NCBI RefSeq assembly: GCF_016097555.1 | Contig: NC_054702.1 | Location: 80,023,997-80,087,996, forward strand | Source of the DNA: Gigantopelta aegis | Taxonomy: Eukaryota > Mollusca > Gastropoda > Neomphalida > Peltospiridae | Direction of reading: 5' to 3' | DNA: 64,000 nucleotides | In this document: positions 15,001 through 63,034 of the stretch, piece after piece | How the letters are laid out: every line of letters starts with the position of its first letter | Numbering within the stretch: position 1 is the first letter of the stretch | Position numbers and translations under genes: made by a program | Notes under the pieces: model-generated | Database searches by the model: none | The model's input: the letters and a program-made list of their open reading frames with translations, nothing else | Told to the model about the DNA's origin: nothing

Positions 15001-18000
15001 TCAAAAAAGCCTTGAAGAAAACCCAAACACTTGATTCATTCTCTGCCAGTAATTGATTTTCCAGCCCTCCAGTGTATTGTCATACTCTTTCTCCGGAACT
15101 CCAGTTTGTGTTAAATGTAGAACAGTACAGTCATCTTTTTGTTCTAGTTCCATTGTCACTTGGGAATAATGCTCTGCGGGCCACGATTTTAACCGCCACT
15201 TCTGAACAATTTTCTTATCTGGTATCTGAAAATGTAAAGTTAATCCACTTTAATATGAGAAAGTCATGCCAGGTAAAATGAAATGAAAGGCAATGTCATG
15301 TAATTACATCCCAGGAATAACTGGCTCAAATATATGTGTGCATATTAAATTAATACTAATCATTGGGAATCGGTTGGCAGTGCACGATTTTGGTTTAAAA
15401 AATTAAAAGTGCCATAAAGACTCCGTTTGCAAATCTTGACATCCTGCCTCCAATCTAGTGAGCCCAACTACGCATCTCCAATACAAAAGAAGATACTCTA
15501 AACAAATTATTTGATTTTATTTGTTGTGGGGAGGGGGGAATATAACACTGTTCTTAGCTATGTATGATGTACATCTATATATGTCAGGGATAGCTCTAGG
15601 TGAGCAGAAAAATTTGCCAAATCATCTTAAAAAAAAATGAAAGAAAGAAATGTTTTATTTAACGATGCACTCAACACATTTTATTTAGTTATATGGCGTC
15701 AGACATATGGTTAAGGACCACACAGATTTTGAGAAGAAACCCGCTGTCGCCACAACATGGGCTACTCTTCCGATTAGCAGCAAGGGATCTTTTATTTGCG
15801 CTTCCCACAGGCAGGATAGCACAAACCATGGCCTTTGTTGAACCAGTTATGGATCACTGGTCGGTGCAAGTGGTTTACACCTACCCACTGAGCCTTGCGG
15901 AGCACTCACTCAGGGTTTGGAGTCGGTATCTAGATTAAAAATCCCATGCCTCGACTGGGATCCAAACCCAGTACCTACCAGCCTGTAGACCGATGGCCTG
16001 CCACTACGCCACCGAGGCTGGTACCAAATCATCTAATTAAAATTAAAAAACCCAGTTATTTTCTAATAAAATAGCAATTATTACATAAAATTTATTCGCC
16101 AAATTAAAATAAAATTTGCCAATTGTTTTTAAACTTCGCAATTGGAGAATTTGGCGAGTGTCAAAGCTAGCCCTGTATGCATTTCTATCAGTTTTGATAA
16201 ATATATAATTATTTGTGAAACTGTTTTTTTATTTTTGTTACTAATAGTTTCATTTAAATAAATCGATGTATAATTAAAGGAGACCGGACACCAAACCATA
16301 TATATGGCGTAATGAATTGTTTGCCGTCATAAACCACAACACGCAACAACCGCGCTCCCCTTATTGACTAAGTTAAGCGTGCCAGTCTTGGTTGGGGTTT
16401 TTTTTTTGCCGATCTCCGATGTTTGCCGGAAATTGTCGACAATTGATGAGCTAGACCCGTGACGTCATCGATGAGAGGAAAACTAAAGAAACTACCAAGC
16501 AGCATGGTCGAACTTAGTGATTCGAGTGACGAAGAATTGTGTCCAGCTTGTGCTAATGGCATCAAACCGTATCAGTTTGAACCACTTATCAGAGACTTTG
16601 ACATCAGTGGATATTCCAATCTGTAAATAATCTTTTGTTATAAATGGTTTTGAGACTACGGTTTGTCATGCTGGCAAGTCAGAGAGTCTCATATGATTTT
16701 GCAAGCCTCAAGCTCACTCTCTCCTTTAAATCACACACTGGTTGGCATTTCATCATCGATTATCAGGTAACCTAAATAAAAGTTATTTGTTTTTAAAGGA
16801 TGAGCTAAAAGATTGAAGTAGGGTTCCTACAGGACAGGATTCAAAACAAAGCAACAACAAATTGTATAAATACATCATCAAAGAATTAGTTTTTGTGTTT
16901 TTTAAAGCATATAAAACCTTACCAACTCTACAAATTCTCCAGTTACATAACCGTTCATCAATGAGAAGCGGGATCCCTTTGCAGCATCTATAACAGCTGT
17001 ACAACCCGTAAATGCTTCTATCATCTAAAGTAGTGAGAAATAAAAACAAAGTGTTAGTGAGAAGGATTCAAAACTACAGCAGCAATCAGCATGGCATTTG
17101 ACAATCCATATTTAATATTAAAATAGCAACCAGCATCTTATCTCATTAATTCTCGTTCCAGCCTGTGCACCATGACTGGTACATCAAAGACTATCCTGTC
17201 TATGGGATGGTGCATATAAAATATCCCTTGCTACTAATGGAAAAATGTAGCAGATTTCCTCTCTAAGACTATGTCAAAATTACCAAATGTTTGACATCCA
17301 ATAGCCGATTATTAATAAATCCATGTGCTCTAGTGGTGTTGTTAAACAAAACAAACTAACTTATCTCATTAAATAATCAATATATTTACTCGAGTCTAAT
17401 CATTAATACAGGTAATTTGTGTATGTATATATATTCTTTTACAAAGCCTAATTGGCTATAGAGGTAACAATTATTCAAAAGCAGACAAATTAACAAAACA
17501 ATCAATGCTAGAAAAACTTCGGACAAAACAGCTAGAAATTCCAAGAAGAAAAAACAAAAATCATTTGTATGTAAAATTAGACAATTCAGGTCCCTATTTT
17601 TTTTAATGTCATATTACAATTTTTAATGCAAACAATGTTCAGTTACTGAATAAAATTTGTATAAAATGATTCCAACAATTTAAAACATGTTTAAAATGTG
17701 TTTTACAACACAATAACAAACATTTATTTTAAAATGAAAAAGATAAAATTTACAATGCTTACCCCTTTGTCTGTTAGTGCACGATATAGATCTGATGCCT
17801 GGCACTTAAATTCTTCTTTTGAAGTTAATTTCTTGGTGCGTATTCGAACACCAAGGTTCTCTATCTGTTGTGAACATCCATCAACGACTTTATTCAATTG
17901 TTTCTTAGCCAAATTCTAGACAAAAATACAAAGAAAGATTTTTTTTTTAAATCTTCAAATATTAACAAATCTGCAGAATACATATACAACACAGGGAATG

Positions 18001-21000
18001 TATAATTTCTAACAAAATCCACTAGCTATGGGATCAGTGATTTAAAACATTTACTAGCCATGATTAAAATTCACTAGCCCTATTTTACTCAATACAATTT
18101 TACTAACAGTAATAATCAGATATGTTACATAAAGAGGGAGATAGCAATTAAAAACACTAAGATTGTGGGGTGGCATTGGGGGCAGGATATACATATTTAT
18201 AAAATATACTTAAATGCAGCATTTGACAACTTTTTATTTTCACTAGCCGTCGGGCATTGAATATCACTAGCCATGGGAGTGGGGCTACCATAATCTAGAA
18301 ACCCTGCAACACCTCACAGAAAGTACAAGACTGGATTTCAGTCAATAAAACTGCAATATTTAAAAGAATCTGTGCACACATGATAAATAATTATGAATGA
18401 CCCCAACATTTGTTTTCTAAATCATCCCCATTAAAACAATTTAGCAAACTTATCCTGAATTTGATGCTAGGCAACTTTCTTAAGTCAATTTTATTTTAAG
18501 AAGTTATATTAAGTGGACTGCAGATTTGCAAATAAACATGCTATAAATAAGACATTTGCTATATTAATAATTAAGCAAAAGGGGAAAATAATAAGATATG
18601 GTAACAACTGTAACAGATAATTCAAAAATAATATACCTCTTTTTGATCTTTGTTTGGTTTTGTTGCTGATTCTTTTGAATTCTTTGAAGGTAGAATTATT
18701 CCCTGACCAAATTCTGAAAAATAAAGAACATCAGCAATATAATTCATAAAAAATGAAGTTTAAAATTGGACCAGCATAAATCAATTTGAATTTTCTTAAC
18801 CTTTTAATAAATCACTATGAACCAACTTTGTTTGACTATTTTTAGCCTCAAGTTATTAATACATATTTTTAAAACTTAAACTAACATGTGCACCCACACA
18901 GTGTTCGAAATAAGCACTTGTTCATTTGTCCTGACAAGTGAAAATCTGCTCGGCCAAACGAAATGTACCTTGGTGGTTGTCCAGTGGACAAGTAAAAGAA
19001 GTTCAAAGAAGTTTCATTTTAAGCAATGAAAACCATCGTCCTTGTACTTGAATAAAACAAATTATTTATTTTGACAGATAAAAATATTCTTGGACAAGTA
19101 GATTTATAGATGGATTTGTCCGGTGGACTAGTGAAAAATTCTGCTTATTTCTATCACTGCCACACTCACACACCTCAACTTATATAGATATATGATCTAG
19201 GAAGAAAAATTCTGCTTATTTCTATCACTGCCACACTCACACACCTCAACTTGTATAGATATATGATCTAGGCAGAAGTCAGGCAATTTGATGAAAAAGA
19301 AACAAAAATGTCCATTTTGTTTTTAGAAAATTGTTATTTAAATTAAAACTACATATAATGGCAGTTTCTGTGACTATGTAATTGGCTTATCTCTTTTCAG
19401 TGTTTCTTTTATGATAATACATTTATAAATACACTGACTTTGATAGACTGGCATATCTACATGTATGGCTTTGTTTTAAAGTGGATTTTGCTTTTGCGAC
19501 GTCAAATTAATATGTAGAAGGTCAGGGGTAAACCATGGCACATGCTGAATTGCTGTTGTAATATGTGAACACTGGGTCTGCATTAATAAATATGTAAGTA
19601 CAAACAGGGCTTCTAGATTATGGTAGTCCCACCCCAATGGCTCATGATATTTAATGATGGGCTAGTAAATACCTACCATCACCATGCCTGATGGCTAGCG
19701 ATTTTTTTTGGGTCAAATGCTGCATTTGTCTATTTTGTAAATGTGAATATCCTGCCCCTTCCCTCAAATCTAAGGGTTTTTAAGCTCCATATCCTTCATT
19801 AGGTGACCTATCCAATTATTTCTATTAGTAAAATTGTATTTACTTTTAGGCTAGTGAATTTTTAATCATGGCTAGTAAAAAAAATGTAATTACTGATCCC
19901 ATGGCTAGTGGAATTTTAAAAAACATTCTAGAAGCCTTGACAATTTGTTTTTTAAAACTTAGGTTAATTAATAGAAGAAAAAAATCCTACCTACCTACCC
20001 TATATTTTTTCAAGGATGAAACACATATACAGTGGACTCTGTCTAAACCGGATTCTGTGTAATCCGGATCTCTGCGTAAACCGGTCCATTTCTAAAGCCC
20101 CGTCCAGCTACCGTTTATCTCTTAGGTATAAATCTCTGCCTAATCCGTACTCGGTCTACTCCGGACTCAGATCAAAAATCAAGATCGAAAGAACCGTTCA
20201 TGCATTAATTACCTCTGTCTACACCGGATTGGGATTTGACTGAACGACAGGCTGCTTAATTAGTAGAACAATGATCGTCACTTGCCGAGTAATCAGGACA
20301 CCGTCGCAAGATCAAATACAAAATGTAATCACACTCGTGTGAAGTTTACTCTTATTGCAGTAGGCCGTTAGATCTGGATTTTGTATTCAAATAATTTCGT
20401 ACATACGAATAAATAATGTTTTAGGAAATAAAATGAAATTTAACCTAGTACAAATATTAGAACGACCAAAAACACGTTTAATATGCAGCTGCTAATATTT
20501 TATGCAGAAAAATATATTTGATATGTAATTACAATCGTTAAAAAGTCTCTGTTCGTGGACAACATCTTAAAAAATTGCAGCAAACTCAGGAATGTCCCTT
20601 TGGGTATATTTTTTGTCTGTGAAATAATCGATTGCAAGTTTGACTTGTATGACTGTGTTTCCCAACCATCCATGGGTTCAAATGTCATTGTTTATCCCGA
20701 GTTGTCGATCAGTCAAGAACCATAACTCTGGATGAACTCCGTCTAAACCGGTCCTCTATGTAAACCGGACTATTTCGATGGTACGAAGTGAGTCCGGTTT
20801 AGACAGAGTCCACTGTATATATTTTTTTAGGCCTTATCCACATACTAGTATATGCATCAACATGAGCACATAAACCATACACTGGTAGCATAGCATAATG
20901 CCAGTGTATGCTTTTTAGCCAAACTAATTTTATATGGAGGATTTTAGCCAGTTGATGGCTATTGGGATATTCATGCCAGTCCAATCGGGGGATGTGGGGT

Positions 21001-42150: not shown

Positions 42151-45100
42151 ATGGCAGCCTTCTTGCAAAATGTTCAGGTTTGTCAATGATATTTTGCTTT
42201 ATTTTCATGACGTTGTTCAAGTAGTACTCTATGACGGTATAAACTGATTGAATTTAGTGACAATAAAGTTTTATATTGTTGTATTGGCTGTTTTTAGAAA
42301 GGGTAATAATAAGAAAATTATAATTTGATATTGAGCTATGACCTTTTGCTAAATGTTTAATATGAACCGCTGACACTTTCTAAATATGACAAGAATGTTA
42401 ACGATTTTTTGCTGTACTGATGGAATATGTTTTAAATAACTATTTTCAACAACAACAACTTTTTTTTTATTAAGGGGAAATACCTGTTTAAATAGCAGTA
42501 ATTGACAGAAGACCTAAACAAATTGGCACTGTGAAATGTTTTAAAATTTAAGCCTGATTTTGAGTATTAATACCTGATATATATTTCCACTAAATTATCA
42601 TTAAAATAGCCCCAAATGTTTTTTCAATGCCAGAAAGGACCATTCATTTGCCTCAAGTATATGGTACGTTTCTTCCCCAAGCAAGTTCGCCCCAGTCAGT
42701 TCACCCCCATATTAATTTGCCCCCAAAATATATATGCCAGTTCGCCCCCAAGATATTACCAGTTCGCCCCCAATGAATTATCAGTTCGCTCCTGCAAAAA
42801 AAAGAAAAAGAAGCAGTGTGGGGTTTGGTATGTCTTCAAAAATAGACACTTGTTATGATGACAACACCACTGTTTTTCAATAACTAATGGCGGTCTCTTT
42901 AATTTCAGACTTTGCCACTGAATAAAATAAAAATTAGCTATTAAAATGAGTTCTGTCTTTTGTACACAATTATTTCAATGTATTTTTGTAGTATTACAGA
43001 TAAATGTTGTACATAACTATCGCCAATGAGCATGTGGTTTTCAACCAAAGAAACACTGCAATGGACTGGTGACAGTGTGTGGCACTACAAGTCTTCCTTA
43101 ACTCAAGTCACTTCCAGCCCTTCCCCTTATTAATATTGATATACATGTATGGGGTAAGGCTAGAGGAAAGTATGTAATGCTTTGGCAAAACTCCACAACC
43201 AAATGGTTGCAAGCTACTGTGTCTAAAATAAATAAAAATTCCTAAATCTGATGCCACAGAGCTTTAGTTTGATTATTCTTAGAGTCCAGTCATGACATTA
43301 AACTTAATGTTTTTAACCAGTACCAAGTAAGAAACCCCGACACTCCTATGCAAAACAAACCTGCGCTGTACTTTTTCTTGTGACATTTTGCATGGCGTGT
43401 GCCCATTAGACACATTGTGTGTGCTTTCTGGCAGAGGCTCTATCCATGGTATCATACTATAGTTAAATTTAAATTACGTACTCAAAGTAAATGTGGTATT
43501 GTTGACAACAGTCACTTTTTGCACCCTTGTTTTGGGTTCGTACACAATAAATATAACATATCTTACTGTAATTTCACTTAAAATCCATATTTTGAAAACG
43601 ATACAATTTTTTTAATCACAAGTGTTTTCAGATATGGACCCACGTCAGCAGTGCCAACTTCCATGCTTTTTGCCAAAGTACATCATTTTTTGTTACCCGC
43701 CCCACTAAACAGGGGTGGGGGATTTTTGTAGATCCTGCCTGGCCACCAGGAGGCACTCCTAATTTAGATCCAAATCTCAAAATGTTTATAATGGGTCATG
43801 GTATATATGTGCCAAGTTTCATGTTTTTAACCAAGGCTGCACAATATTTTTATTAGCTGTCCCATTAGAAGGGGGTGTGGGGACATTTGTAGATCCTCCT
43901 TGGCCACCAGGGGGCACGTCTGACATGGGTCCATATCTGAAAATGTTTGAACCAACATTACACGAAGAAACCTGACGTCTCTATGTGAAATGAACCTGCG
44001 CTGTACTTTCATGTGGTGACTTAGAGCAAAGTGTGTGCCCACGTGACATATTGGTACTGGTTAACAACATGTAAGTTTAATATCATGACTGGACTCAAGA
44101 ATAATCAAACTAAAGCTGTGTGGCATCAGATTCAGGAATAAATTTGTATTTTAGACACAGTAGCTGGCTACCATTTGGTCATTGACGATTGCCGAAGTAT
44201 TACACACAGTCCCCTCTAGCCCTGTACCATGCAGGGTATAGAGGGTAAGTGTAGTTTGCGGATAAGTTCGCGTATTGAATTTATGACATCATTTACATGA
44301 TCATGATGGGTTACATAAAAACGAAATGGGTTACCTGAATTTGTTTTTGTGTAACCCATAAATGGAAATATTCAATTCTCAGAGACCTGTCATTGGTCGT
44401 AGCCTATATTTGAATATCAGTTTATTTCATGTACTTCTGAGACCTGTCATTGGTCGTAGCCTATATTTGAATATCAGTTTGTTTCATGTACTTCTCTTGT
44501 CCATAGCCTGTTTTGACAAATGTACAATTCTAAATGCTAATCATTTTAAATTTTATTTGTAGAAACTTTTGCAACCCAGAAGTGTTTTGCTCAAAGTGGT
44601 AGCAAGACAGTCTTTAATTGCTTCATACGACAAAAAGGAAGGAGTACCTCGTGATTTTCTTTGTTGGCTACAGCAGGATCTAAGTTTGCCAGCAATTCGA
44701 CAGAAATTAAGAGTAACAAGCTTTCAACTGGATAGAGAGGATCAAAAGTATGATTACTTTATGTGGAAGATGTAGTGGTACTTGATGAGCGTCACATATA
44801 TATAACCTTTGCCACGGTATATGTATCAAGCATTAATGGAAATTATATGCATCCTGACAATTAAAGTATCCAGGTTTTTGTAATGCCCCAAAATGCTTTT
44901 TTTTTCGTAATTCTGAAAATGCACGTTTGTCTGAGAAGTAATAGTTATTGAGACGAGCTCTAGTTATTTTAGACAGCATGTCCCTGTTTAAACATCACAG
45001 ACGTTAGCTTCCCTCTGTTTTAACTTTAGCCAGCTATGTTGCAGGTTTGTAGATTAATTAAACTTAAGTGACCATTTTCACAGGCTGAAACTAGAGTCCG

Positions 45101-47780
45101 TGTCTTTAAGATATTTATCATTTCCTCTTCTTTTTCCTCACAAGATGCTTTGCCGTGTTGCTGTTTTGTTGCATTTTCTTTCAATTACCGTTTATACAAA
45201 AAGTGACGGAACTGTTTACTGCATTGCATTTTACAGATATCGTCCAGAACGTCACAAAATTCTTGGTCCTGATTTGGCAACAGCTCATTTCATTGTTAAA
45301 AGGAAAGGTGCTGTAAAATTTGTTGGCCATGATTCTTGGTTTCGTCTGAATAAAGCTGGGAGGTACAATCTTCCTAACAGAAGAGTTGATGGTATGGAAC
45401 TGGAAGCAGTGGATGCATCAGGTACAAAACTGATGTCTGCAGGGTTTGAAAATTTTGGTAAGTTAGTTAATGTTTCTTTAAAATTAAAAGGTTTGCATGG
45501 TTTAAGATGCAATGATTTCATGAAAAATTACTATTTATAACAGCATATTCTCACTTCTGGCACTATGCCTTAATCAAGGCTAGCTCTAGGTCAGAAAAAT
45601 ATTTCACCAAAATATCAATTATTTCATGAAATTAAATTTGCCCAGTGTTATTGGCGAGTGCCAGAGCTAGCCCTGCAAGACTAACATTTTTCAGTCTACA
45701 CTCAAGTCTCTAATAATATCTTGCAACTTTAATGTCTTGGCAAAATATACAAAGTGCATATATATGACACAACTGAAAAAAATTGAGTGTAGACAAACTT
45801 TTATAAGCACAGACCATATTTTTTCTTTTATACAGCAGTTTTAACTTTCAGTGACTTACTTAATAGATAAATTTTACAATATACATGTATAACAAGAATT
45901 CCACAGAAATAAATGTCCTGCCCACCATGAATTTATATGGCGACACTCATGGATGCCTTAATTTTATAGATATTAATGCATGTTAAAACATTTACAAATT
46001 AATTAAATTTGTAAATTAATGTTTTAATTCTTAAAAAGAAATATATATTCCATTATTTTAATAATTTTTTTCATACATACATTCAGTTTATTTTTGTGCT
46101 TATATCCAATTAAAGTTCAAGCAGGCTGTCCTGGGCACACACCTCAAGTTAAGACTTACGGCAACAAAAATTAATTTAAAACACCTTTAATCATTCAGAG
46201 TTAACTGTCAAATCCTTAAATAATGTTTAGCTCAACTAATGTTTCTCTTTTTTTTTCAGTTGACTTAGAAAACCTACGATACTTAAATGTCAGCAACTGT
46301 GTCAACATGGATGACTGGTGCCTGGCCTGTTTTCACCAGTTTGCAGATACACTGGAGTTTCTCGACATCAGTGATTGCCCACAGATAACAGAACGAGGCA
46401 TAGCCTGTCTGCACCACCTGAAGTATGTCACTGAAGTTAGCTGAAGTCACTCTTATATCTTTAATCACACCTCAGCACATTTAAAATTTCTGCTGTTTGG
46501 TGTCTTAACATGTGGTTATTTCGACATTTCATAAGAGAGAAAACATGTTGTTACGATATAGGCTACTCCTATTTATAAAGCAGCAAGGGATGTTTTATAT
46601 GTACTTTTCCATAGACAGGACAGTACATATACAGGCCTTTGATGTACAAGATTTGTTTTGTTTAATGACATCACTAAAGGTATGACTATACCATGTTAAC
46701 ATTTGTATTTAAAAACACTATATGCAATATATCAACCAAACTATGACCCATAAATATCAGTACTACAATCTCTACCTCAAAGTATTAACTGCAGAAAATG
46801 GTACCTTTCATGACTCATTTTCGGTAAAACCAGATGTTTTTACAACACCCCTATTTTCGCACAAATTTGAGTACTTGTTTTTTACAGGTACCCCATACAT
46901 GTTCCAAGCACAAGGCTACTTGACACAGTGGTACTAGATGAAATAAAATTGCATCCATTTTTAGCCCAGATGAATCTAAATTTTTTTTACAACACAACAC
47001 ACATTTATAACCAATCACAGGACTTGTGGTGTTAACTTCTCTATCAAAAGTTTGGTGCATCTCGAACTTTGACCCAGCCTGAAATTATTTGGTTTAGTAC
47101 TACCTATAGCATATTGATTAAATATTAAGTGGCTATTAAATGTTAAACATTTAGTAATTTTGACATATAGTCTTCAAAGGAAAGCAAGTACATTTTTCCA
47201 CTACCGAGAGAACTAGACCCTGCCTCACTTGTGGGACCGAAGTCCATCAAAGGTGATCAATCCAATTTGTATGACATCATTTCAGTGCAAGTTAAATTTA
47301 TCATCACAGTTAGACAAGTGTCCATTATTACCTACAGAACAAATGATGCTGAAAGGTAATTAGGGGCGTGTGCAAGAATTTTAGCAAGGGGTGTGTCTAG
47401 ACTGATGAGCGAAGTTTATAAGGTGGGTTGAGACATGCTTCCCCGGAAAATGTATTTAAAAAAAAAATTGCTTGTGTATGGAGGGGAGGGGTTGGACATA
47501 CACACAAGTCTGTTAATTGACTGCAACAGTAGTTTTAATTATTCAAATTAATTTTACTTTCAGGCATCTTCAAGCTTTGAAAATGAAAAATCTCCCCAAA
47601 GTAGAAAATCCACAACTTGTGATTCTTATGTTGGAAGAGCTTCTACCAAACTGCAAAATATTTGGACCTGATTATAACACAATACACAATGAATTGGAAA
47701 CCGATGGTCAGATAAATCAGTCTGGTGTTATCACACAAGATTCTCATACAGCACAGCCTGAAACACAGGTCCAGAGATGA
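42151..47780 (+). CDS. DMAC2: DMAC2 / ATP5SL, complex I distal-arm assembly protein (complete)
   Basis: Mitochondrial inner-membrane factor for building the distal membrane arm of respiratory complex I. Exons: 42151-42177, 44563-44747, 45237-45457, 46260-46422, 47564-47780, all GT-AG with matching phases, 270 residues (human 257). The start ATGGCAGCC lies in a good context and encodes MAAFLQNVQ; the next residues (KLLQPRSVLLKVVARQSLIA) make a basic, amphipathic mitochondrial presequence. Conserved blocks: FIVKRKGAVKF, ELEAVDASGTKL, NMDDWCLACFHQFADTLEFL, CPQITERGIACLHHL, VENPQLVILMLEELLPNC; the last three are leucine-rich repeats. The final 30 residues are poorly conserved. Its 163-nt fourth exon matches the corresponding DMAC2L exon in length and phase. 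AATAAA follows at 47879. Confidence 0.96.
42675..42797 (+). repeat. degenerate GTTCGCCCC minisatellite
   Basis: CAGTTCGCCCCCAA and variants recur six or seven times at 15-35 bp spacing. DMAC2 intron 1. Confidence 0.8.
43743..43756 (+). promoter_or_regulatory. CTCF-like motif, one mismatch
   Basis: CCACCAGGAGGCAC differs from the animal CTCF core (CCASYAGRKGGCRS) at one base. First copy of the internal duplication in the foldback element. Confidence 0.3.
43904..43917 (+). promoter_or_regulatory. CTCF-like motif, perfect core
   Basis: CCACCAGGGGGCAC fits CCASYAGRKGGCRS at all 14 positions and is preceded by TGG as in strong sites. Whether it is bound is unknown. Confidence 0.4.
44384..44497 (+). 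repeat. 57-bp tandem duplication
   Basis: GACCTGTCATTGGTCGTAGC starts at 44384 and 44441; the units differ at about one base. It lies just upstream of DMAC2 exon 2. Confidence 0.9.
45575..45675 (+). mobile_element. hAT-like MITE (GGCTAGCTCTAGG)
   Basis: CAAGGCTAGCTCTAGGTCAG at the left and GCGAGTGCCAGAGCTAGCCC at the right; a shorter copy of the 15585 family. DMAC2 intron 3. Confidence 0.65.
46560..46680 (-). mobile_element. degenerate SINE fragment
   Basis: GGCTACTCCTATTTATAAAG, GCAAGGGATGTTTTATATG and GGCCTTTGATGTAC match the SINE central block. DMAC2 last intron. Confidence 0.6.
47090..47215 (-). mobile_element. degenerate SINE tail type 2
   Basis: GTTAAACATTTAGTAATTTT and GACATATAGTCTTCAAAG match the type-2 SINE tail. 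DMAC2 last intron. Confidence 0.6.
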
Positions 47781-51304: not shown

Positions 51305-51618
51305 ACACACTAGAAGAAGCTTGTTTGTTTTGTTTAATGACACCACTAGAGCACATTGATTTATTAATCATCGGCTATTGGATGTCAAAACATATGGTGA
51401 TTCTGACAGAGCGGAAACCTGCTACATTTTACCATTAGTAGCAAGGGATCTTTTATATGCATAATCTCAGACAGGATAGCACATACTACGACCTTTTGAT
51501 ATACCAGTCGTGGTGCACTGGCTGTGACAAGAAATAGCCCAGTGGGCCCACCGACGGGGATCGATCCCAGACCGACCGCGCATCAAGAGAGTGCTTTACC
51601 ACTGGGCTACATCCCACC
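51305..51618 (-). mobile_element. full-length SINE, head type 1 plus tail type 2
   Basis: Minus-strand order: tRNA-like head (A box about TAGCCCAGTGGTA, B box about GGGATCGATCC), GCCAGTGCACCACGACTGG, central block, and type-2 tail ending TTAAACAAAACAAAC. It is the reference for the split SINE at 22861-28806. Confidence 0.9.
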
Positions 51619-51861
51619 CCGTACAACACTAGATAATCCACTTTTATTAGTAGCATGCTGAAAATAATATCCATATCCACTGCGATATACATAGCAGAAA
51701 CATGTATCACCAAATTTATATAAAATGTATAGTTTTGTGTCTTGGCATTTGTTGATGAACGCCAAGAAAAAGGACGATTAACATTACTTCATTCATGATA
51801 ATTACTCATCCTCAATTACTTAAAAAACAACAACCTGTGGCTGCATACCTTAATGACGAAC

Positions 51862-52018
51862 CTTTTAAGATCCCTTGCTGCTAATCGGAAGTAGCCCATG
51901 TAGTGTCGACAGCGGGTTTCCTCTCAAAATTTGTGTGGTCCTTAACCATGTCTGACGCCATATAACCGTAAATAAAATGTGTGGAGTGCGTCGTTAAAGA
52001 AAACATTCCTTCTTTTTT
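51862..52018 (+). mobile_element. SINE fragment, tail type 1
   Basis: AAGATCCCTTGCTGCTAATC, GTGGTCCTTAACCATGTCTG, GACGCCATATAACCG and GCGTCGTTAAAGAAAACATT. The head is missing. Confidence 0.85.
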
Positions 52019-52164
52019 TTCTTCAGTAAAAAGCATTTGTGTCATTCTTTCAGTCAACTGTGCTGGTGAAACGACATACCAATATCAGTACAAGTCCTAT
52101 TCTGGATTTTCTGTCTGCACTTTTTAAGAAATGCTAAATAATTTTGTGTGTACAAAGAAATATT

Positions 52165-52925: not shown

Positions 52926-53256
52926 CAGGGCTTGAACTTAACGACAGCAATTGCCATCATTAAGATATAAACTGCTGTAGGTAGAAATCATCACCAACGA
53001 CACTTTTGTGCTGTCGGAAAACTGATAAAATGTGTACATCTGGTGTACATTATCTGCCAGTATTTAACATTTGTACATTTGAAATGTATTTACATACAGC
53101 AAAATAACCTTTCAGTCATGTGTATTTGCTGAAAATGTCACTTTTTAGAAAAACAATCACAGAGGCAGTCTCAAAATTGCCATCATGGGCCGTTTCACCC
53201 ATGGCAATTCTTTATTAAAATTGCTGTGGCAGACAAATTCTTAAGTTCGAGCCCTG
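52926..53256. mobile_element. hAT-like MITE (CAGGGCTTGAACTTAA)
   Basis: The left end CAGGGCTTGAACTTAACG and the right end CTTAAGTTCGAGCCCTG; CATGTA is repeated directly at both edges. 331 bp. Confidence 0.8.
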
Positions 53257-53783
53257 CATGTATATCTTAAATTTTGACAGCTACACATCTCCTGGTACTC
53301 AGTTAAATAGCTCCATGAACATGTATACACTACCGGGGTAACTGTAATAATAAAAATAATAATTAAAAAACAAACAGAAACATATCTAAAATGTTTCCCC
53401 AATGTTATTAATAATGCCTATTGAAAAACAATGTCATGACAGTTAATTTTAAACAAATATTTCAAACAATCATGATGATTAACAGAAGAAAATACTCAAA
53501 TATTTTTAACAGATTCTGTTCAAAATATATATAATTATCCATTTTTTAAACGAAAACTCAAAATGACATCCTCAACAAGGTGATCTCATCCACACTGGAT
53601 CACAGATTGAATCCACATTGTGTTGTAGGTCAATCATTCACACTGTCTGCAATAACATTAACAACATATGCAAGTCTCATCAACAACGTGACATGAACAT
53701 TTTGTAAACACATGTTTTTGGTGTAAACAAGGTTGTTCACAATTTTATCTTTACAAAAATCTCATTTTGAGGATATTGAAATT

Positions 53784-54693
53784 GAACTAGAATTCACTTG
53801 AAGAAGCTAGTCCACAAGACTGTTAATAAGATGGGTAATACGACCCATACTGTGATCCATAGTTAGCGTAATTTGAACTAGAATTCACTTGAAGAAGCTA
53901 GTCCACAAGACTGTTAATAAGATGGGTAATACGACCCATACTGTGATCCATAGTTAGCGTAATTTGAACTAGAATTCACTTGAAGAAGCTAGTCCACAAG
54001 ACTGTTAATAAGATGGGTAATACGACCCATACTGTGATCCATAGTTAGCGTAATTTGAACTAGAATTCACTTGAAGAAGCTAGTCCACAAGACTGTTAAT
54101 AAGATGGGTAATACGACCCATACTGTGATCCATAGTTAGCGTAATTTGAACTAGAATTCACTTGAAGAAGCTAGTCCACAAGACTGTTAATAAGATGGGT
54201 AATACGACCCATACTGTGATCCATAGTTAGCGTAATTTGAACTAGAATTCATTTGAAGAAGCTAGTCCACAAGACTGTTAATAAGATGGGTAATACGACC
54301 CATACTGTGATCCATAGTTAGCGTAATTTGAACTAGAATTCACTTGAAGAAGCTAGTCCACAAGACTGTTAATAAGATGGGTAATACGACCCATACTGTG
54401 ATCCATAGTTAGCGTAATTTGAACTAGAATTCACTTGAAGAAGCTAGTCCACAAGACTGTTAATAAGATGGGTAATACGACCCATACTGTGATCCATAGT
54501 TAGCGTAATTTGAACTAGAATTCACTTGAAGAAGCTAGTCCACAAGACTGTTAATAAGATGGGTAATACGACCCATACTGTGATCCATAGTTAGCGTAAT
54601 TTGAACTAGAATTCACTTGAAGAAGCTAGTCCACAAGACTGTTAATAAGATGGGTAATACGACCCATACTGTGATCCATAGTTAGCGTAATTT
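53784..54693 (-). repeat. 91-bp satellite, exactly 10 units, from PRPF39 terminal exon
   Basis: Units start every 91 bp at 53784, 53875, 53966, 54057, 54148, 54239, 54330, 54421, 54512 and 54603. By eye they are identical except for one C-to-T in unit 6. On the minus strand each unit contains the codons for [16 protein letters not shown], the stop TAA and about 49 nt of downstream sequence. The unit at 54603 supplies the real end of the coding region; the other nine lie downstream. Confidence 0.95.
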
Positions 54694-57600
54694 GAATGAT
54701 AGGGATAGCTGCTGCTTGGGTTAGGCTGGAAAAAAAAAAGAGAGAAAAGAATTAAATAGAAATGTTAATCAATAAAACAGCTATATCTAGTTTTTAAAAC
54801 AAGATGTTTGTGGATTTAAATGTCTTGTCTACCATAAACTGGTTTAGAGTTGTTGTTTTTTTAATTTTCATAATGCATGAAGTAAAACACAAAATTTTTA
54901 TTATTAAAAAAAAAGCCCAACTATACATTGTGAAATAAACATCCACAAGTACAACAATGACCCAAGTTCAATGGATCCAAAACATATGGTTTGAGTAAGA
55001 AATGGTACTAAATGCAAAACTTAGAGCTAAACAGTACAGTTGATGCTACCAATGGAAAAATAGCATCCATATCTAACCTTTCGATGTTGACAAAAACACA
55101 CACCATAACACAAAATATATTGCCATTACCCCCCCCCCCCCCCCCCCCCCCCCCAATTTTTTTTTAATATATATCACTTGATAATCCAAATGAAAATAAC
55201 TTACAGGGTAATAATAGTTGTATGCATGGTTTGTGTCTGGTGTGGATGTAGAGCTTAAGTGTGATGTCGAGTCTCCACTTCCATTAATTGTTTCAGTCTT
55301 CTGCTTCTTATCTGGAGGCTGTGAAGAATCATCTCTAGAAGATAAAACATATCCGGTTAAAGGCTAGAAGATAAAACATATCCGGTTAAAAGCTAGAAGA
55401 TAAAACATATCCGGTTAAAAGCTAGACGATAAAACATTTCCTGTTACAAGCTGCAAACCAAAGTACATACGCATTAAAAATAAATCAGTCAGTTGAATTT
55501 TCTTTCTGTGATGCACTGTAAAATATTATTTCTAATCGAAGAAGGAAGGAAGGAAATGTTTTATTTAACGACGCACTCAACACATATGTATGGTTATATG
55601 GCGTCAGACATATGGTTAAGGACCACACAGATATTGAGAGAGGAAACCCACTGTCACCACTTCATGGGCTACTCTTCAATTGGCAGCAAGGGATCTTTTA
55701 TATGCACCATCCCATAGACAGGATAGCACATACTACGGCCTTTGGTGTACCAGTCGTGGTGCACTGGCTGGAGTGAGAAATAGCCCAAGGGGCCCACTGA
55801 CGGGGATCGATCCTAGACCGACCGCACATCAAGCGAGCACTGTACCACTGGCCTACGTCCCGCCCCTTCTAATCTAAGAAGTCATCATATTTGAAAATTC
55901 TTGCAGTGCTTTTAAATTTGTATATCTAGAGTTTATTTTTTTAGAGACACCAACCCTCACCCCAAAGATGAAAGTTTAAGTGTGGAATAGTGCACAAAAT
56001 ATCACTCTCCTTAAAACTTATAAATGATAGCTTGTCTAGGATACTTCTAAATTACAAGTTATTTTTGTTTCAAGGTAGATAACAATATCTACTGACAGCC
56101 ATACACAAAAAATATATTAAAGCTGTTGGTGTATATTTGTGTTTTGGATTGACATGCAATGTTATCGGATGAGGAAACAAGACTGCAACTTTAAGACCAT
56201 AGCTATATGCGTGTTCAAATGTGTATAAAAATTAAATCATTCTGAACCATGCTGCATGCACTGGGTCTTTCACTTCTTTTTCAAATAATCATGAATATGA
56301 TGTTTGTATGAATGAATTATTTTTTACTGATCACTAACAATTTCTGAGAAAATAGAGCCAACATGAAAAATGCACAGGCAAATCTAAATGTATAAACTTA
56401 ACTATAAATTTAACCCCAAAAATCTTAAAGGAAACATGTCACGAGACCATATTATAGCTCATTTTAAAAGCAAAATGATATAAAAATAATATACAAATAA
56501 GTTTATAACAATAAAATATGCGTAGTTAACTTAAAATGAAGAAATTATGCCAAACAGTATCAAAGTACGATTTATGCATATTTATTCGTGAGCGTTCGGA
56601 AAAAAAGGGAAGTGACGTCAGAGCCGCTGTACTCTTCCATTGTTGTTAACTGTTTATATATTGAGTAAGGGGCTTACGATCTTTTCAGTCCAGCAGTGCC
56701 GTACTGCGCGGCCTTTGGGTGTAAAAATGAACAGTTTAAACGATCCGGATTATCTTTTTACGGTTTTTCAAAGGATTGTATCCGAAGAAAGACGAGTGTA
56801 TTTTATCGCAATCTAATTAAAATTAGCTCCACTATTACATGTGGATCTAACACCAGACAGTTGGAGCTCATGTCCACCAATCAAAACCTTAATTGCAGAA
56901 TCCTGCCAGTGATTTAAAAATAATTTTAAAACATTCCGAATTATCCTGAGGGTATACGACATGTTTCGTGTGAATTACGAATGCCTTAAAACATGTTTTA
57001 TTTTATAAAATAAATAATTTGTAATGTAAAACTGAAGACTGATTTAGTTAGGTTTTTTTTTTATAAATAAATAAATAAATAGTTTTTAATGTAAAATTGA
57101 AGACTGATAACCCACCCCGTATGTATTGGTATGGTTCGCTGTACTGCGGCCACTAAAATAGACTCGCCCGATATTTTTTGAATTTGTATGCTCCCAAATA
57201 ACGTTATAAAAGGTGAAGTGTGATTGGTCAATATTTAAATTATTATTTACAGACGAAATGTTACCTGGACATTGGGGACTACGCAGTGTTGTTACGTTTT
57301 AAGTGCAAGTGCAAGTGCAAGTGCGGTTTTGATTGGTGGACATAAGCTCCAACTGGCTGGTGTTAGATCCACATGTAATAGCTAATTTTAATTAGATTGA
57401 TTTTATTGCAAAACAAAAGATTGGACACCAACACCGCATAGTACTTTGGTGTCAGCCTATTTTAGTATTTACAGCCCGGAGCCCGAACGATACCCAGAGA
57501 CAAAAACAGTACTCGGTTGCGAATGCCGAGGTGTACATTGTATATATTTGGCACAAAGATACACCTCAGCATGATGTATTTATATATGTTAAAACAAAAA

Positions 57601-60600
57601 TGTATATATTTTTTTTTTATTTTTTTTAAAAGAAGAGATTTTTCATGTTAGGCCTACATAACCAAATCTGTATTCACCGTCCGAAGAAGGAAACGTCAAT
57701 AATTAAATAAATATGGCATATACAAACATAGGATTTTGCATGAGGATACATCTCAGTACAATGTATTTAAATATGTTTTTTTTTTTTTAAATAATGATTT
57801 TAATCTTCGGGCGGAGTACGTCACAAAAACGTTCCTCATCGCCCGAAGCCCCAAAGTAACACAAAGTTCAATACAAAATAAACCACTACTGTCGGTGTCG
57901 AAATAACTATTATGTTTCATCCACGGGCTGACTTGAGAATTGGAGTGTTGTTTTAGTTAATTGGTCCTTTCTTTCCTTGGCCTGCACATGTGATTCCTGA
58001 CTGGCAGGTGTATGTTGCAGGGTATCGACCCGGTAAGTGATTACCACTGTCTAGACATACGTACAAAATACTTGCCAGTTTTTTAAGATCACAGGGTATT
58101 GTGGCATAACCTGTCGCGACTATAGTACAATGTTAATGGACATTATCAGCCGCCCTGCTTCATAACTGTAAATAATGCTGTAAAACTCTTGATTAAGTAG
58201 ACTTTACCATCTAAAATTACAAAACTGACCAATTACGTAGTACCAAAGAAAAGAAAATTATCACATGGGTATTGTGAGTGGTCGTTTTTACTCTAACGCA
58301 CCCTACCAATAGGCCTAATAATATGCCGCTTTTTTTTTGGAGAGAAAAATACTATAACCCCATTTCGTTCTATTGATGCAAATTGAAATATATTTAGTTA
58401 AAAAGTTGATTATACTCTCAAGTCATTTATGTTGTTTTACAAGTCAATTGAACTTTAATGAAAGTGAAGCGCCTTGTAAATTAGAGTGTTTGTTTACACT
58501 GTGCATACAGATTTCATTATGTACATGAAAAATGCGATATTTTCTAAATAAAAATAAAATAAAAAAAAGTTTGTCCTACATTTATATTTTTAATATATTT
58601 AAATACATCATTAGCATCCGAGTTTTGGTTTTGTCTCTGGATTACTTTCGGGCTCCGGGCTGTAAATTGGTCGACCGGTCTGGTCTGGCACCATCAGTTT
58701 CTCCACCCTCCGACTCCCTATCCGTTTTTTCTTCAATATCACTGTTGTAAGTAAATGTGTGTCTTTCTTCATTTACTAACAGCTCAAATTGATACGGCGA
58801 AACGTTTTGCTAACGAACACTCATTGTTTTGGTAAGCTGTGCAAGTCTTAAGATTCTTTTTGAGTGGTACGGACTAATGCTTTTAAGTGTAAAAGGCTTC
58901 AGATCAAGCAACGCGTCTCTGACATCACGGACCTCGTGATTGCCCTGCTCATTAAAGATCGTCAATTACCGCTAAGAGCTCGTATCTGGGGTTTTTTTTA
59001 ATGGAGATATTTTAAGTAATTAATTTTTAAATAATTTTTTTTTTTAGGTGATTCATTTTATAATTAATTGTACATGGTTGGTGCCAAATATAGGTCACGT
59101 GACATGTTTCCTTTAAAACACAATAAGATAGTCAGTTTGCTTACAACTGGTCGGGATGCTTCTTCTTGCGATCTGTATTTAAATCTTTGACTAGTTTTTG
59201 ATGTTCGTCGTATGCTTCAGTGATTCTACAAAAGAAAAGCATCAAAAAATTTTAACAGCTGCATCTTTGCAGATAAATTTATATTGCTTTTATTACAAAA
59301 AATGTTCCTGCTACAAGCAGCGATAATGAAGATCAGTAATTTTGTTTTAAATAAACATATAAAAAGCTTTCCAAAAATGCATTGAATTAAAGACTACAGT
59401 AAACGGTTTGCCAGAAGTTAAAGGTGTCAATCATGGTAATTTTAGTTATTTATCTACAGTGAGCAAAGAAACCTACTATTATCATCAGACTTTTTATTTT
59501 TACTAGCAGCCATCAATCTTTTACACTTTTTCACAGACAGATTAGCACATAGCAGTCATCGACTAAGATGCAGTCACAAATTCTTTAAACCAATATATTT
59601 AAAACAGTCAATAGTATTAGGAATCTCAAGGCTTATGCAAATATCAAACACTATTGTCCTACAAATTTAAACATGCTGACCTTTTGATATCTGTACCAAA
59701 GTCTTCCAAAAATTCCATTCTCCGCTGTGAAACTTTGACCTTAAAATCCAGCTGAACATCATTCTGGATGACTCGATCAAATACTTCCAGTGTTCGGTCA
59801 ACATCTACAGGCTGAGTCTGATACTCAAGATCTATTAACTGTAGAAACAGTTTTTCATTTCTCTGAAATTAAATACACATCAAATATCACTGTTGCTTTA
59901 CACCACAAATTACTATATGTATATTATTTATTATATTTAAATAATTCCAATCTGTAAATAACACTTTTGTTATAAATGCTTGAATTGATCCAAATAATAG
60001 GTGACCTAAAAAAAAGAAGACAATAACTCCATGGACCTCAATTCTGGACTACTTTCAGATGTTTTCTTTACTGTTTAAAACTAATAAAATAACTGTCTAC
60101 ATTACATCAGTAAATTATATTTTTTTTATTAAAATAACGTACACTTTTTCTTTTTAAAAATTATTTCTAGTAAAAATGTAACAATTACCGTCATGCATGA
60201 AAACAATGTATGAACAGCATAGCAGTTCTGAAAACAATATTTTCTTGAATGTCAAACATGATTGCATTCAATTGTTACATACTGCAATATTTCAATATAA
60301 TTTGTAAAAATATTTTTATTCTGAACATAATTATATTATAAAAAATTCTTTTTACATACCTTGTCTCTTTCAAGTGCTTCTGTCAGAATACATCTTGCTT
60401 TTTGAGAGTTACCTTTAATCTGAAAACAAAAACAGTCATATAATAAAGTGTAAAATGTAGATTTCACTTTGGTAGCATGAGGGCCATGCTAGTAATGGAT
60501 TTAAAAATACAATAAAATATTCAGATTCATGAACTAGTTTGTTATGTTCAGGGATGTGAGAGGGGCTGGAACAAAAAAGCTTATTGTGGCTGGGGTCCAG

Positions 60601-63034
60601 GGGCCGCTGGGAAAATTGTTGTTTGCAACCCCTGGAACTGCCAAAAATTGCATTCAATGCCAACAATCTAAACTGGTTATAACTTATAATATAAGGCATA
60701 CATCATAAACGTGAAACCATGAAAACATGCAAATGAACCTTGTGTGGTCAACAGTATTGAACATGTTTTAATTTTTTTGGGTGTTTTTTTTAGACGAAAT
60801 GGAAAAGCACATTTCCACGTAGCTCATATCCCTGTACGTTTGTATCTCTCAAGTGCCTTAAAAAATGTTACAGTAGTCATGGTACATATAAATACATAAC
60901 CAAAATGTACTAATAAGGATACCAATGTTAACCAAAATGGGTATCACATCTTTAGTGACATTCTAGGTTTACTGTATTAAATTTTAACTTTATATACTTT
61001 ATATACCTCCCAGAACTGGATTGTTCAAGCAGGACTATTCAAGTCTTACCTTTAGAAGATATCTAGCGAATTTGATGGAATAAAATGATTTGACTGATGG
61101 AGATGTAGACTGGTTAATATAATCTTGGAAGAGTTTTTCAACATCAGTGTCGTTGCCTTGGCGCCGCTCTAGACTGATCCTTCGCATTGCCACCATCACA
61201 AGTCCGGGGACATTCTTATCTATGTTGATCAGTACTTGACGAGTAGCTTGGTAATTTTCTGTATAATAAAAAATAATTATTTAAATCATGCTATTTATGT
61301 TTTGAATATGGCTGATGGATACAATATTTCACAAGAATTAAAAAGAACAGGGATGAGTTTCATGAATATTTAATCTAACCTTGGTCAATTTGGTACTCTC
61401 CCCACCCCCAATGTCTGACTACTCTAACAGTCGATTGGCTAGAATTGTCCATATACCCAGGGTATCTTCTCCCAGTTACGTGATACAAGTCCGAGGTCAG
61501 GATAGTGTAAGAAAAGAAATCACATTAGTAAAATGTTAAAGAATCTTAATATATATATTTTTTAATATTAATTATTTTAACAATTTTTAAAAAAGAAACT
61601 GATTAAAATGTATTGGCAGCTTTTTGTAATTTTAAAAGGCAGAAAGAAATCAGAAATCTAAGCTCAAGAATATAAAATTAAGCCAAATGTAAGATCCTTA
61701 TTTCCTTGACCCAACAATATTTAAAGAATACTTTTCAAATACATATGCTTGTTGTTTTTTTATAACAAGAAAGCTGAATATAAATTTTTAAAATTCAAAA
61801 GAATTTTTAAGAGTATAATTGATTTTTAACGAATAAGATGCCATTACTGTACACACGTTGTCTTTCTTCAAAAGCTGCCCATGCCATGTGTATGTACGGT
61901 TTCTTTGGTAAGTGAATCTCACAAGCTCGTCGGTAGACATTCTGAACACCTTCTATACTGTGCTGCTCCAAATACTTTGCATACTGAAAACAAAAATAAT
62001 TAAACATCATCTTTCAAAACACATTAGTGCTGAATTAATAACCGTATGATAAAAAAATTTCCCACTTTTCTTATTACAACCCAATACATGAAATGGATAT
62101 AAATTACAGAACAGGATTTAAATTATTTTAGTTAATGAATTCAAAAATAAAATAAAATTAGGTTCAAGATTTAGTTTTTATGGCTGAAATGTTGTTCTGT
62201 GATATATTAACTAAGTAAAATAGTTTAAGATCGTTTTAGAACTGCTAAATAAAATCTGAAAAACATAATTATTGTTGCAATGAATTTACAGCTGACAAAT
62301 ATTTTCTTATAGCAGCAGAGCTAATATTACACGCAAACCGTAGTTCTATTCAAGTGTTCCGCCACTACAATTCTTTTTTAAATAGTGTTCCCTATTAACA
62401 GTAGACAAATGTTGTGATTGAATGAACAACTATTGCGATTGACTCAAGGATTACCTTCATCCAGAAATCTTCATAGAGTGCACATGCAATCATACATCTT
62501 TCAAACAGTACCACAACTCTCTCGTGTGATCCATGTTCTATTTCAAAATCTAGGTACTCTCGCCAATTCTTAAGCTGAGCTCTTTCCAATGGTTTTACGT
62601 GAAAGTATGGTCTTCTAACCTGAAAAAAAATGTCACAGTAACTTTTTAAACTCTGAAATAATATGTATTTCCAATCATTAGCATCTCAAACAATTCCATT
62701 GAAAATTCACATTCCTCCCATATAGCACATCAACAGATAGTAAATACTATAAACCATTCAGTTCTACATACTAATGCAAATGGACGACTGTCATCTTACA
62801 TTTTGAATATTTAAATATATGAAAGATATTAATTAAATGTTGCAATGAACATGTTTAACAAGTTCTATAAACTTCAGTATTTTATTACCTACTAGAAACT
62901 AGTAAACTAAACTTTTTACTTACTGCTTCTTCAAATGCCCATCTTCTGCTGACTTCATTTTCATTTCTTTTAAACATAGCTTCTCTGATATCTATTATTT
63001 TAACACGCAGCTTTCTTGATTCTACGTCATCACT
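54642..63034 (-). CDS. PRPF39: PRPF39 splicing factor, C-terminal 382 residues (5' part off window)
   Basis: HAT-repeat (half-a-TPR) protein of the U1 snRNP, homologue of yeast Prp39; it acts in the nucleus in 5' splice-site recognition. Exons: 63034-62924, 62619-62455, 61983-61857, 61258-61050, 60419-60360, 59862-59681, 59225-59145, 55334-55205, 54725-54642, phases consistent throughout. Markers: [133 protein letters not shown]. The last two exons encode a low-complexity tail rich in Ser, Asn, Tyr and Pro, ending SYYPSY. Odd points: weak donors GTGTGT (after 61857) and GTCAGC (after 59681), a Kolobok element close to the 59145 donor, and tandem repeats at the edges of both last exons. Confidence 0.96.
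55129..55154 (+). repeat. 26-bp C homopolymer
   Basis: Uninterrupted C run in the last PRPF39 intron; its length is likely to be unreliable in any assembly. Confidence 0.9.
55335..55450 (-). repeat. 29-bp tandem repeat carrying a splice-acceptor-like end
   Basis: About four units of GCTAGAAGATAAAACATATC plus CGGTTAAAA; the first abuts the PRPF39 exon at 55334. On the transcribed strand each unit ends TTTTATCTTCTAG, identical or close to the acceptor actually used. Confidence 0.9.
55541..55867 (-). mobile_element. full-length SINE, head type 1 plus tail type 1
   Basis: Minus-strand order: head with GGCCAGTGGTA and GGATCGATCCC, CAGTGCACCACGACTGG, central block, then CATATGTCTGACGCCATATA and AAACATTTCCTTCC. 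TTCTAATC occurs at both ends (about 55529 and 55866), a probable target duplication. PRPF39 intron. Confidence 0.9.
56696..57463 (+). pseudogene. THAP domain relic, interrupted by a MITE
   Basis: 56696-56808 reads [10 protein letters not shown] and [15 protein letters not shown], the start of a C2CH THAP finger. The expected ATG is GTG here. After the MITE (56809-57399) the frame resumes as [15 protein letters not shown] at 57419-57463, where the usual Cys and His of CSAHF are replaced. Non-functional. Confidence 0.8.
56809..57399. mobile_element. MULE-like MITE, 591 bp, 9-bp target duplication
   Basis: Terminal inverted repeats of about 80 bp start CAATCTAATTAAAATTAGCT and include CCACATGTAATAG and GTTGGAGCT motifs. 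Flanks ATTTTATCG (56800-56808) and ATTTTATTG (57400-57408) differ at one base. It is inserted in the THAP relic. The shorter relative at 22935 shares its ends and the CGGGCGAGTC segment. Confidence 0.85.
58628..58800 (-). pseudogene. fragment with PYQFE motif (P2X7-like N-terminal type)
   Basis: The minus-strand frame reads [20 protein letters not shown] then [20 protein letters not shown]: the same PYQFE plus acidic region as at 16471, here inside the Kolobok element. Too short for function. Confidence 0.45.

Follow-up and report, generated by a model that had tools for sequence, protein, structure and literature searches.

A young minisatellite very probably born from the end of the PRPF39 gene in the gastropod Gigantopelta aegis

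Results

A 91-bp tandem array over the end of PRPF39

In Gigantopelta aegis, the terminal coding exon of PRPF39 runs into a 91-bp tandem array that is, with high probability, a young minisatellite confined to this single locus and born from the gene itself. The array lies at 53782..54696 (sense strand minus) of the window, by which we mean the whole 64-kb stretch of DNA that was analysed (C4:80023997-80087996), and it is made of ten full units plus 5 bp (TTGAA), that is, 10.05 head-to-tail units and 915 bp in total (10 x 91 + 5). The TRF row for 53782-54696 gives a period of 91, 10.1 copies, 99% matches and no indels, and its score of 1823 is the highest of the 39 TRF rows for the window. When the units were compared one by one, nine of the ten were found to be identical, while the remaining one, at 54237..54327 (minus strand), carries a single substitution, C>T at 54252. 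The period-91 self-match begins exactly at 53782, and a 23-base core of the unit has 10 matches in the window (at most 3 mismatches) vs none in 100 shuffles. An earlier note on this DNA had described ten near-identical head-to-tail 91-bp units at 53784-54693; both the TRF row and the unit-by-unit comparison confirm the units, and the bounds given were correct within 3 bases at both ends.

Units differ from one another by 0.0022 per site on average (9 differences in 45 pairs x 91), corresponding to an age of approximately 0.1-1.1 million years when rates of 1e-9 to 8e-9 per year are assumed and homogenisation and polishing are ignored. The near identity of the units supports the recent origin that had been claimed for the array; short-read polishing may have hidden some differences between units. 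Because purity is the same at the edges of the array as in its middle, a single recent expansion and homogenisation are indistinguishable here.

With 91 bp x 10.05, the array is a minisatellite in the sense of head-to-tail units of about 10-100 bp that together span hundreds to thousands of bases. Classical satellite DNA is likewise made of head-to-tail, near-identical units, but it is dispersed or megabase-scale, with long arrays that usually occupy many loci and are often centromeric or heterochromatic, whereas the PRPF39 array is a single array of 915 bp at one locus. The term satellite, as used in the earlier note, was therefore an overstatement.

The unit contains the last codons and the stop of PRPF39

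The host gene of the array is PRPF39, encoded on the minus strand. A single exon piece of 77 aa matched mouse PRPF39 (6g70) with E 1.6e-30, and eight pieces, stitched together by visual inspection with guesses for some residues at the joins, matched it with E 8.9e-107, the alignment reaching residue 666 of 670. Three pieces were scanned against Pfam: one matched HAT_PRP39_C (6.6e-29), and the two others, both short, matched no family. Across the assembly, HAT_PRP39_C has two matches above the family cut-off, both in the array-bearing gene; a third match, on C3, is below the cut-off and contains stops. Upstream coding exon pieces were located as peptides at 62924-63022, 62455-62619, 61858-61983, 61047-61259, 60360-60413 and 59686-59859 (all minus strand), these being peptide spans whose ends are approximate except where a consensus splice site was seen. 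They are followed on the same strand by the antepenultimate exon at 59145..59225, the penultimate exon of 130 nt at 55205..55334, and the coding part of the terminal exon, 27 residues long, at 54645..54725. The start of the terminal exon at 54725 is preceded by a pyrimidine tract (18/18) and an acceptor CCAG that ends at 54726, and the reading frame is continuous across 59145-59225, 55205-55334 and 54725. The last intron contains a run of 26 C (55129-55154), a likely sequencing-error site.

The stop codon, TAA at 54642..54644 (minus strand), falls within the unit that the gene reads first. This native gene end, the unit at 54601-54691 (minus strand), comprises the stop, the 15 complete codons before it and two bases of the sixteenth, and the whole array extends into the eighteenth codon from the end. 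The C-terminus encoded in the unit is in frame with the upstream exons and is, by homology, the end of PRPF39, with the tail itself only loosely like that of mouse PRPF39 (a YG.YYP end). Indeed, the unit content proposed earlier (the last PRPF39 codons, the stop and the start of the 3' UTR) was recovered in full, as was the proposal that the array starts inside the coding part and continues with nine units after the stop-bearing one. It had further been argued that the protein is unaffected. This part stands, because the native stop sits in the first unit read; whether 91 is divisible by 3, which had been part of the argument, is irrelevant to it.

A few other features of the window were recorded. 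A convergent gene is represented by coding pieces with leucine-rich repeats at ~46220-47780 (plus strand), with an LRR_6 match below the cut-off, and we take this gene to be perhaps DMAC2/ATP5S-like. At ~55540-55860 there is a dispersed repeat, presumably of a type common in mollusc genomes, and similar coding-like pieces are present near 51490-51660 and 51880-52080. ARAGORN, run with bacterial settings, reported one tRNA-like gene without assigned identity at 15947-16018 (minus strand).

A proposed course of birth and spread

The array boundary carries the 5-bp repeat TTGAA, which suggests birth by slippage or microhomology repair; for comparison, when breakpoints 91 bp apart are drawn at random in nearby DNA, 1.6% show junction homology of at least 5 bp. 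Given the extra five bases, the ancestor presumably had TTGAA on either side of a 91-bp stretch that would have comprised the last codons of the gene (the last 15 in full, up to 17 depending on register), the stop and the start of the 3' UTR. A first duplication could have arisen by slippage or microhomology-mediated repair, and unequal exchange or further slippage would then have raised the number of units to ten. As all the extra units would fall in the 3' UTR and leave the protein unchanged, the array would have been tolerated, and since gain or loss of whole units would leave the C-terminus and the stop intact, the copy number could drift in a neutral or nearly neutral manner. We infer that all ten units would be transcribed, that the array is close to neutral, and that its copy number may be polymorphic.

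How ordinary such arrays are in this genome

The array had also been called unusual. We counted arrays by TRF, requiring a period of 20 or more and a copy number of 8 or more, with overlapping rows merged to the best-scoring one. The main sample consisted of the first 20 in sorted order of 60 random C4 starts, covering C4 5.0-19.4 Mb and thus skewed to one chromosome end, and the second of five stretches on other chromosomes at hand-picked round positions. On C4 at 5-19 Mb, 193,934 non-N bases yielded 19 such merged arrays, distributed over 11 of 20 stretches, and 4 of the 19 were at least 97% identical. The other chromosomes contributed one such array, 77% identical, in one of the five stretches (38,536 non-N bases). 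Merging dropped one row of 41 bp x 9.0 (99%) in L036 for its 122 bp x 3.0 form, and the dropped row is excluded from both the 4 young arrays and the 19. Pooled, the 232,470 non-N bases sampled outside the window thus contain 20 arrays with 8 or more copies, 19 of them from one array-dense region, and this count leaves the word unusual without support. In the 64-kb window, the PRPF39 array is the only one of at least 8 copies. Arrays with 5 or more copies make up approximately 14% of the non-N bases of the C4 5.0-19.4 Mb sample (L019-L038); several arrays there have a period of 90-93, and two PRPF39 units were unmatched there beyond 15 bases. For a related snail, Chrysomallon squamiferum, the accessible part of the published description reports ~10.17% tandem repeats (PMC7736800).

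By plain arithmetic, random placement would put ~300 arrays over a stop codon, with 4 young arrays per 232,470 bases, a mean length of ~827 bp and 21,438 genes as inputs, the last being the gene count of G. aegis given in the accessible part of the genome paper (PMC7895826). The real number is probably below ~300, given that selection operates and that arrays look sparser in this gene-bearing window and on the other chromosomes. Genome-wide, finding an array across a stop codon is probably no surprise. Since the stretches on other chromosomes and the rest of the window are much poorer in arrays, the background near genes may be low and the PRPF39 array may be less ordinary than the pooled count suggests.

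The minisatellites of C4 at 5-19 Mb (57 bp x 8.7, 97%; 55 bp x 19.8, 98%; 42 bp x 10, 98%; 71 bp x 18.3, 97%) resemble the PRPF39 array in having tens of bases per unit and 8-20 copies at 97-98% identity, vs 99% for PRPF39; the latter sits on a stop codon. Within the window, a G+C-rich and very young minisatellite is present at 2598-2768 (42-bp unit, 4.1 copies, 100% identical), and it is open in more than one frame. There are also two young two-copy tandem duplications, at 19133-19277 (71 bp at 97%) and 44382-44495 (57 bp at 98%), possibly first steps toward such arrays. As far as the accessible text of its description goes, a known 3' UTR minisatellite of a protein-coding gene is similar to the PRPF39 array in being single-locus and in copy number (3-11 repeats), but the PRPF39 unit, unlike that one, includes a coding end and a stop (PMC8502797). 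Titles and the beginnings of abstracts retrieved for PRPF39 together with tandem repeats mentioned no such array, and, judged likewise from titles and abstract beginnings, none alike was found among the matches listed for minisatellites at stop codons, in last or terminal exons, or in 3' UTRs. No new kind of genetic system is indicated by the PRPF39 array.

Alternative explanations

Is the array real, and did it originate from PRPF39? Short reads cannot place 91-bp units, and the accessible methods text describes an assembly from PacBio subreads by Canu correction and wtdbg2 that was later polished with Racon and Pilon (PMC7895826), so one or a few real units might conceivably have been inflated to ten by the assembler. 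We consider this quite unlikely, as 915 bp is far below read length (Canu minReadLength 8000, according to the same text; PMC7895826) and spanning reads should therefore exist. The position of the variant unit in the middle of the array also argues against simple copying of one unit, and the many arrays of differing periods in the assembly speak against an artefact. No alternative haplotype copy of the array locus was seen in the assembly. As to origin, we searched the complete assembly of 1,149,253,464 bases in 5,216 contigs, skipping very common words and with counts that are lower bounds. The unit had 10 matches, all 10 at the PRPF39 locus, and its sequence is in this sense locus-specific. 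The left flank of the array had one match and the right flank (421 bases) one full-length match; 16 other right-flank matches, pieces of 39-124 query bases at 71-92% identity, are probably dispersed repeats. Arrays of period 92-93 are present in the sampled stretches and would fit the capture by PRPF39 of a pre-existing satellite as its C-terminus and 3' UTR. However, the unit is unmatched elsewhere in the assembly, two units compared with 25 sampled stretches gave just a single 15-base match, in L028 (reported per unit, E 0.12), and the C-terminal tail encoded by the unit can be aligned with mouse PRPF39, which makes the gene end older than the array. On these three grounds we rejected the capture of a satellite, to which we assign a next to negligible probability. 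A prokaryotic or viral origin of the unit is likewise unsupported, the exact 23-base core being unmatched in either collection, although these collections are uninformative on animals. PRPF39 as the seed of the array, which was the proposal of the earlier note, is thus borne out by the assembly-wide search that had been suggested as a check, in which no copies were detected at unlinked loci (on lower-bound counts).

Another question is whether the array does anything in the transcript. It contains no AATAAA, and the first one downstream of the stop is at 53211..53216 (minus strand), therefore a transcript ending there would carry all ten units. If this signal is used, the predicted 3' UTR would span 53195..54641 (minus strand, ~1,447 nt), of which 860 nt would be array. 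A scan for seven poly(A)-type hexamers found none inside the array. Neither the single unit (z -0.82; 44/200 shuffles as good) nor the whole array (z -1.01; 3/20 shuffles as good) folded better than shuffled sequence, which leaves an earlier suggestion of altered RNA structure unsupported, and no Rfam family was matched at gathering scores; the better fold or known RNA family that would mark a structured 3' UTR regulatory RNA is thus absent. A peptide encoded by the array was rejected, the longest stop-free run in six frames being 26 codons. The best donor-like word of the unit, CAAGTGAAT, weakly resembles a 5' splice site and is found in 9/10 units; its GT is lost in the sole variant unit, where the substitution reads G>A on the sense strand, and this loss may be due to chance. 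Scored with an approximate weight matrix, CAAGTGAAT ranks in the top 6.7% of the 7,613 GT sites that the window contains, counting both strands. The recurrence of this word, together with five AGs per unit and the partnership of PRPF39 with U1 snRNP (stated in the accessible part of PMC5648754), would be compatible with a functional 3' UTR element under selection, acting through U1-like 5' splice sites, protein sites or a decay-triggering intra-UTR intron. We nevertheless regard such an element as very unlikely: all four PRPF39 donors that were scored outrank the best site of the unit, for which reason the array was also rejected as a set of repeated splice sites, there is no fold signal in unit or array, and the youth and near identity of the array are predicted by neutral expansion alone. 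In summary, folding, Rfam and splice-site scoring revealed no sign of function, and a tolerated, nearly neutral VNTR is the best reading of the array.

A second array at the penultimate 3' splice site

PRPF39 carries another tandem array in front of its penultimate exon, whose 3' splice site occurs as four 29-bp units at 55335..55450 (minus strand), with AGs that end at 55335, 55364, 55393 and 55422. The unit furthest from the exon is the most divergent, and the region 55335-55450 has one match in the assembly. Two of the last signals of PRPF39, an acceptor and the stop, are hence each multiplied. Splicing to the AG at 55335 yields the full C-terminal tail, while with the AGs at 55364, 55393 and 55422 only two new codons precede a stop, which then lies 155, 184 and 213 nt, respectively, before the last exon junction. 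By the 50-55 nt rule, a stop farther upstream of the last junction than this distance leads to mRNA decay, and use of any of the extra AGs would, as predicted from the sequence, send PRPF39 mRNA to decay. Many RNA-binding proteins are said, in the accessible part of one report, to be self-regulated through splicing that introduces an early stop (PMC6547761); PRPF39 was absent among the matches listed in a literature search for PRPF39 and poison exons.

Discussion

We take both PRPF39 arrays to reflect the habit of this genome of making minisatellites. It is highly improbable, in our estimation, that the tail of PRPF39 is a double repeat-based control region in which copy number sets the expression of a U1-partner protein. 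If this were nonetheless true, the extra AGs at the penultimate 3' splice site would mark mRNA for decay, the ten copies of the stop region would contribute weak U1-type sites from nine units, and the array would guard the end of the protein, as loss or gain of units would keep the C-terminus and the stop.

Read as a young minisatellite born from PRPF39, the 91-bp array clearly exemplifies a minisatellite at an early age: its source, the gene end, is known, its boundary carries a defined 5-bp repeat, and neither flank has a full-length match anywhere else in the assembly. It indicates that coding sequence can be amplified without a change to the protein when the amplified stretch is placed across a stop codon. 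If the copy number varies among individuals of G. aegis, the array would provide a natural series for testing whether the number of repeats in a 3' UTR matters.
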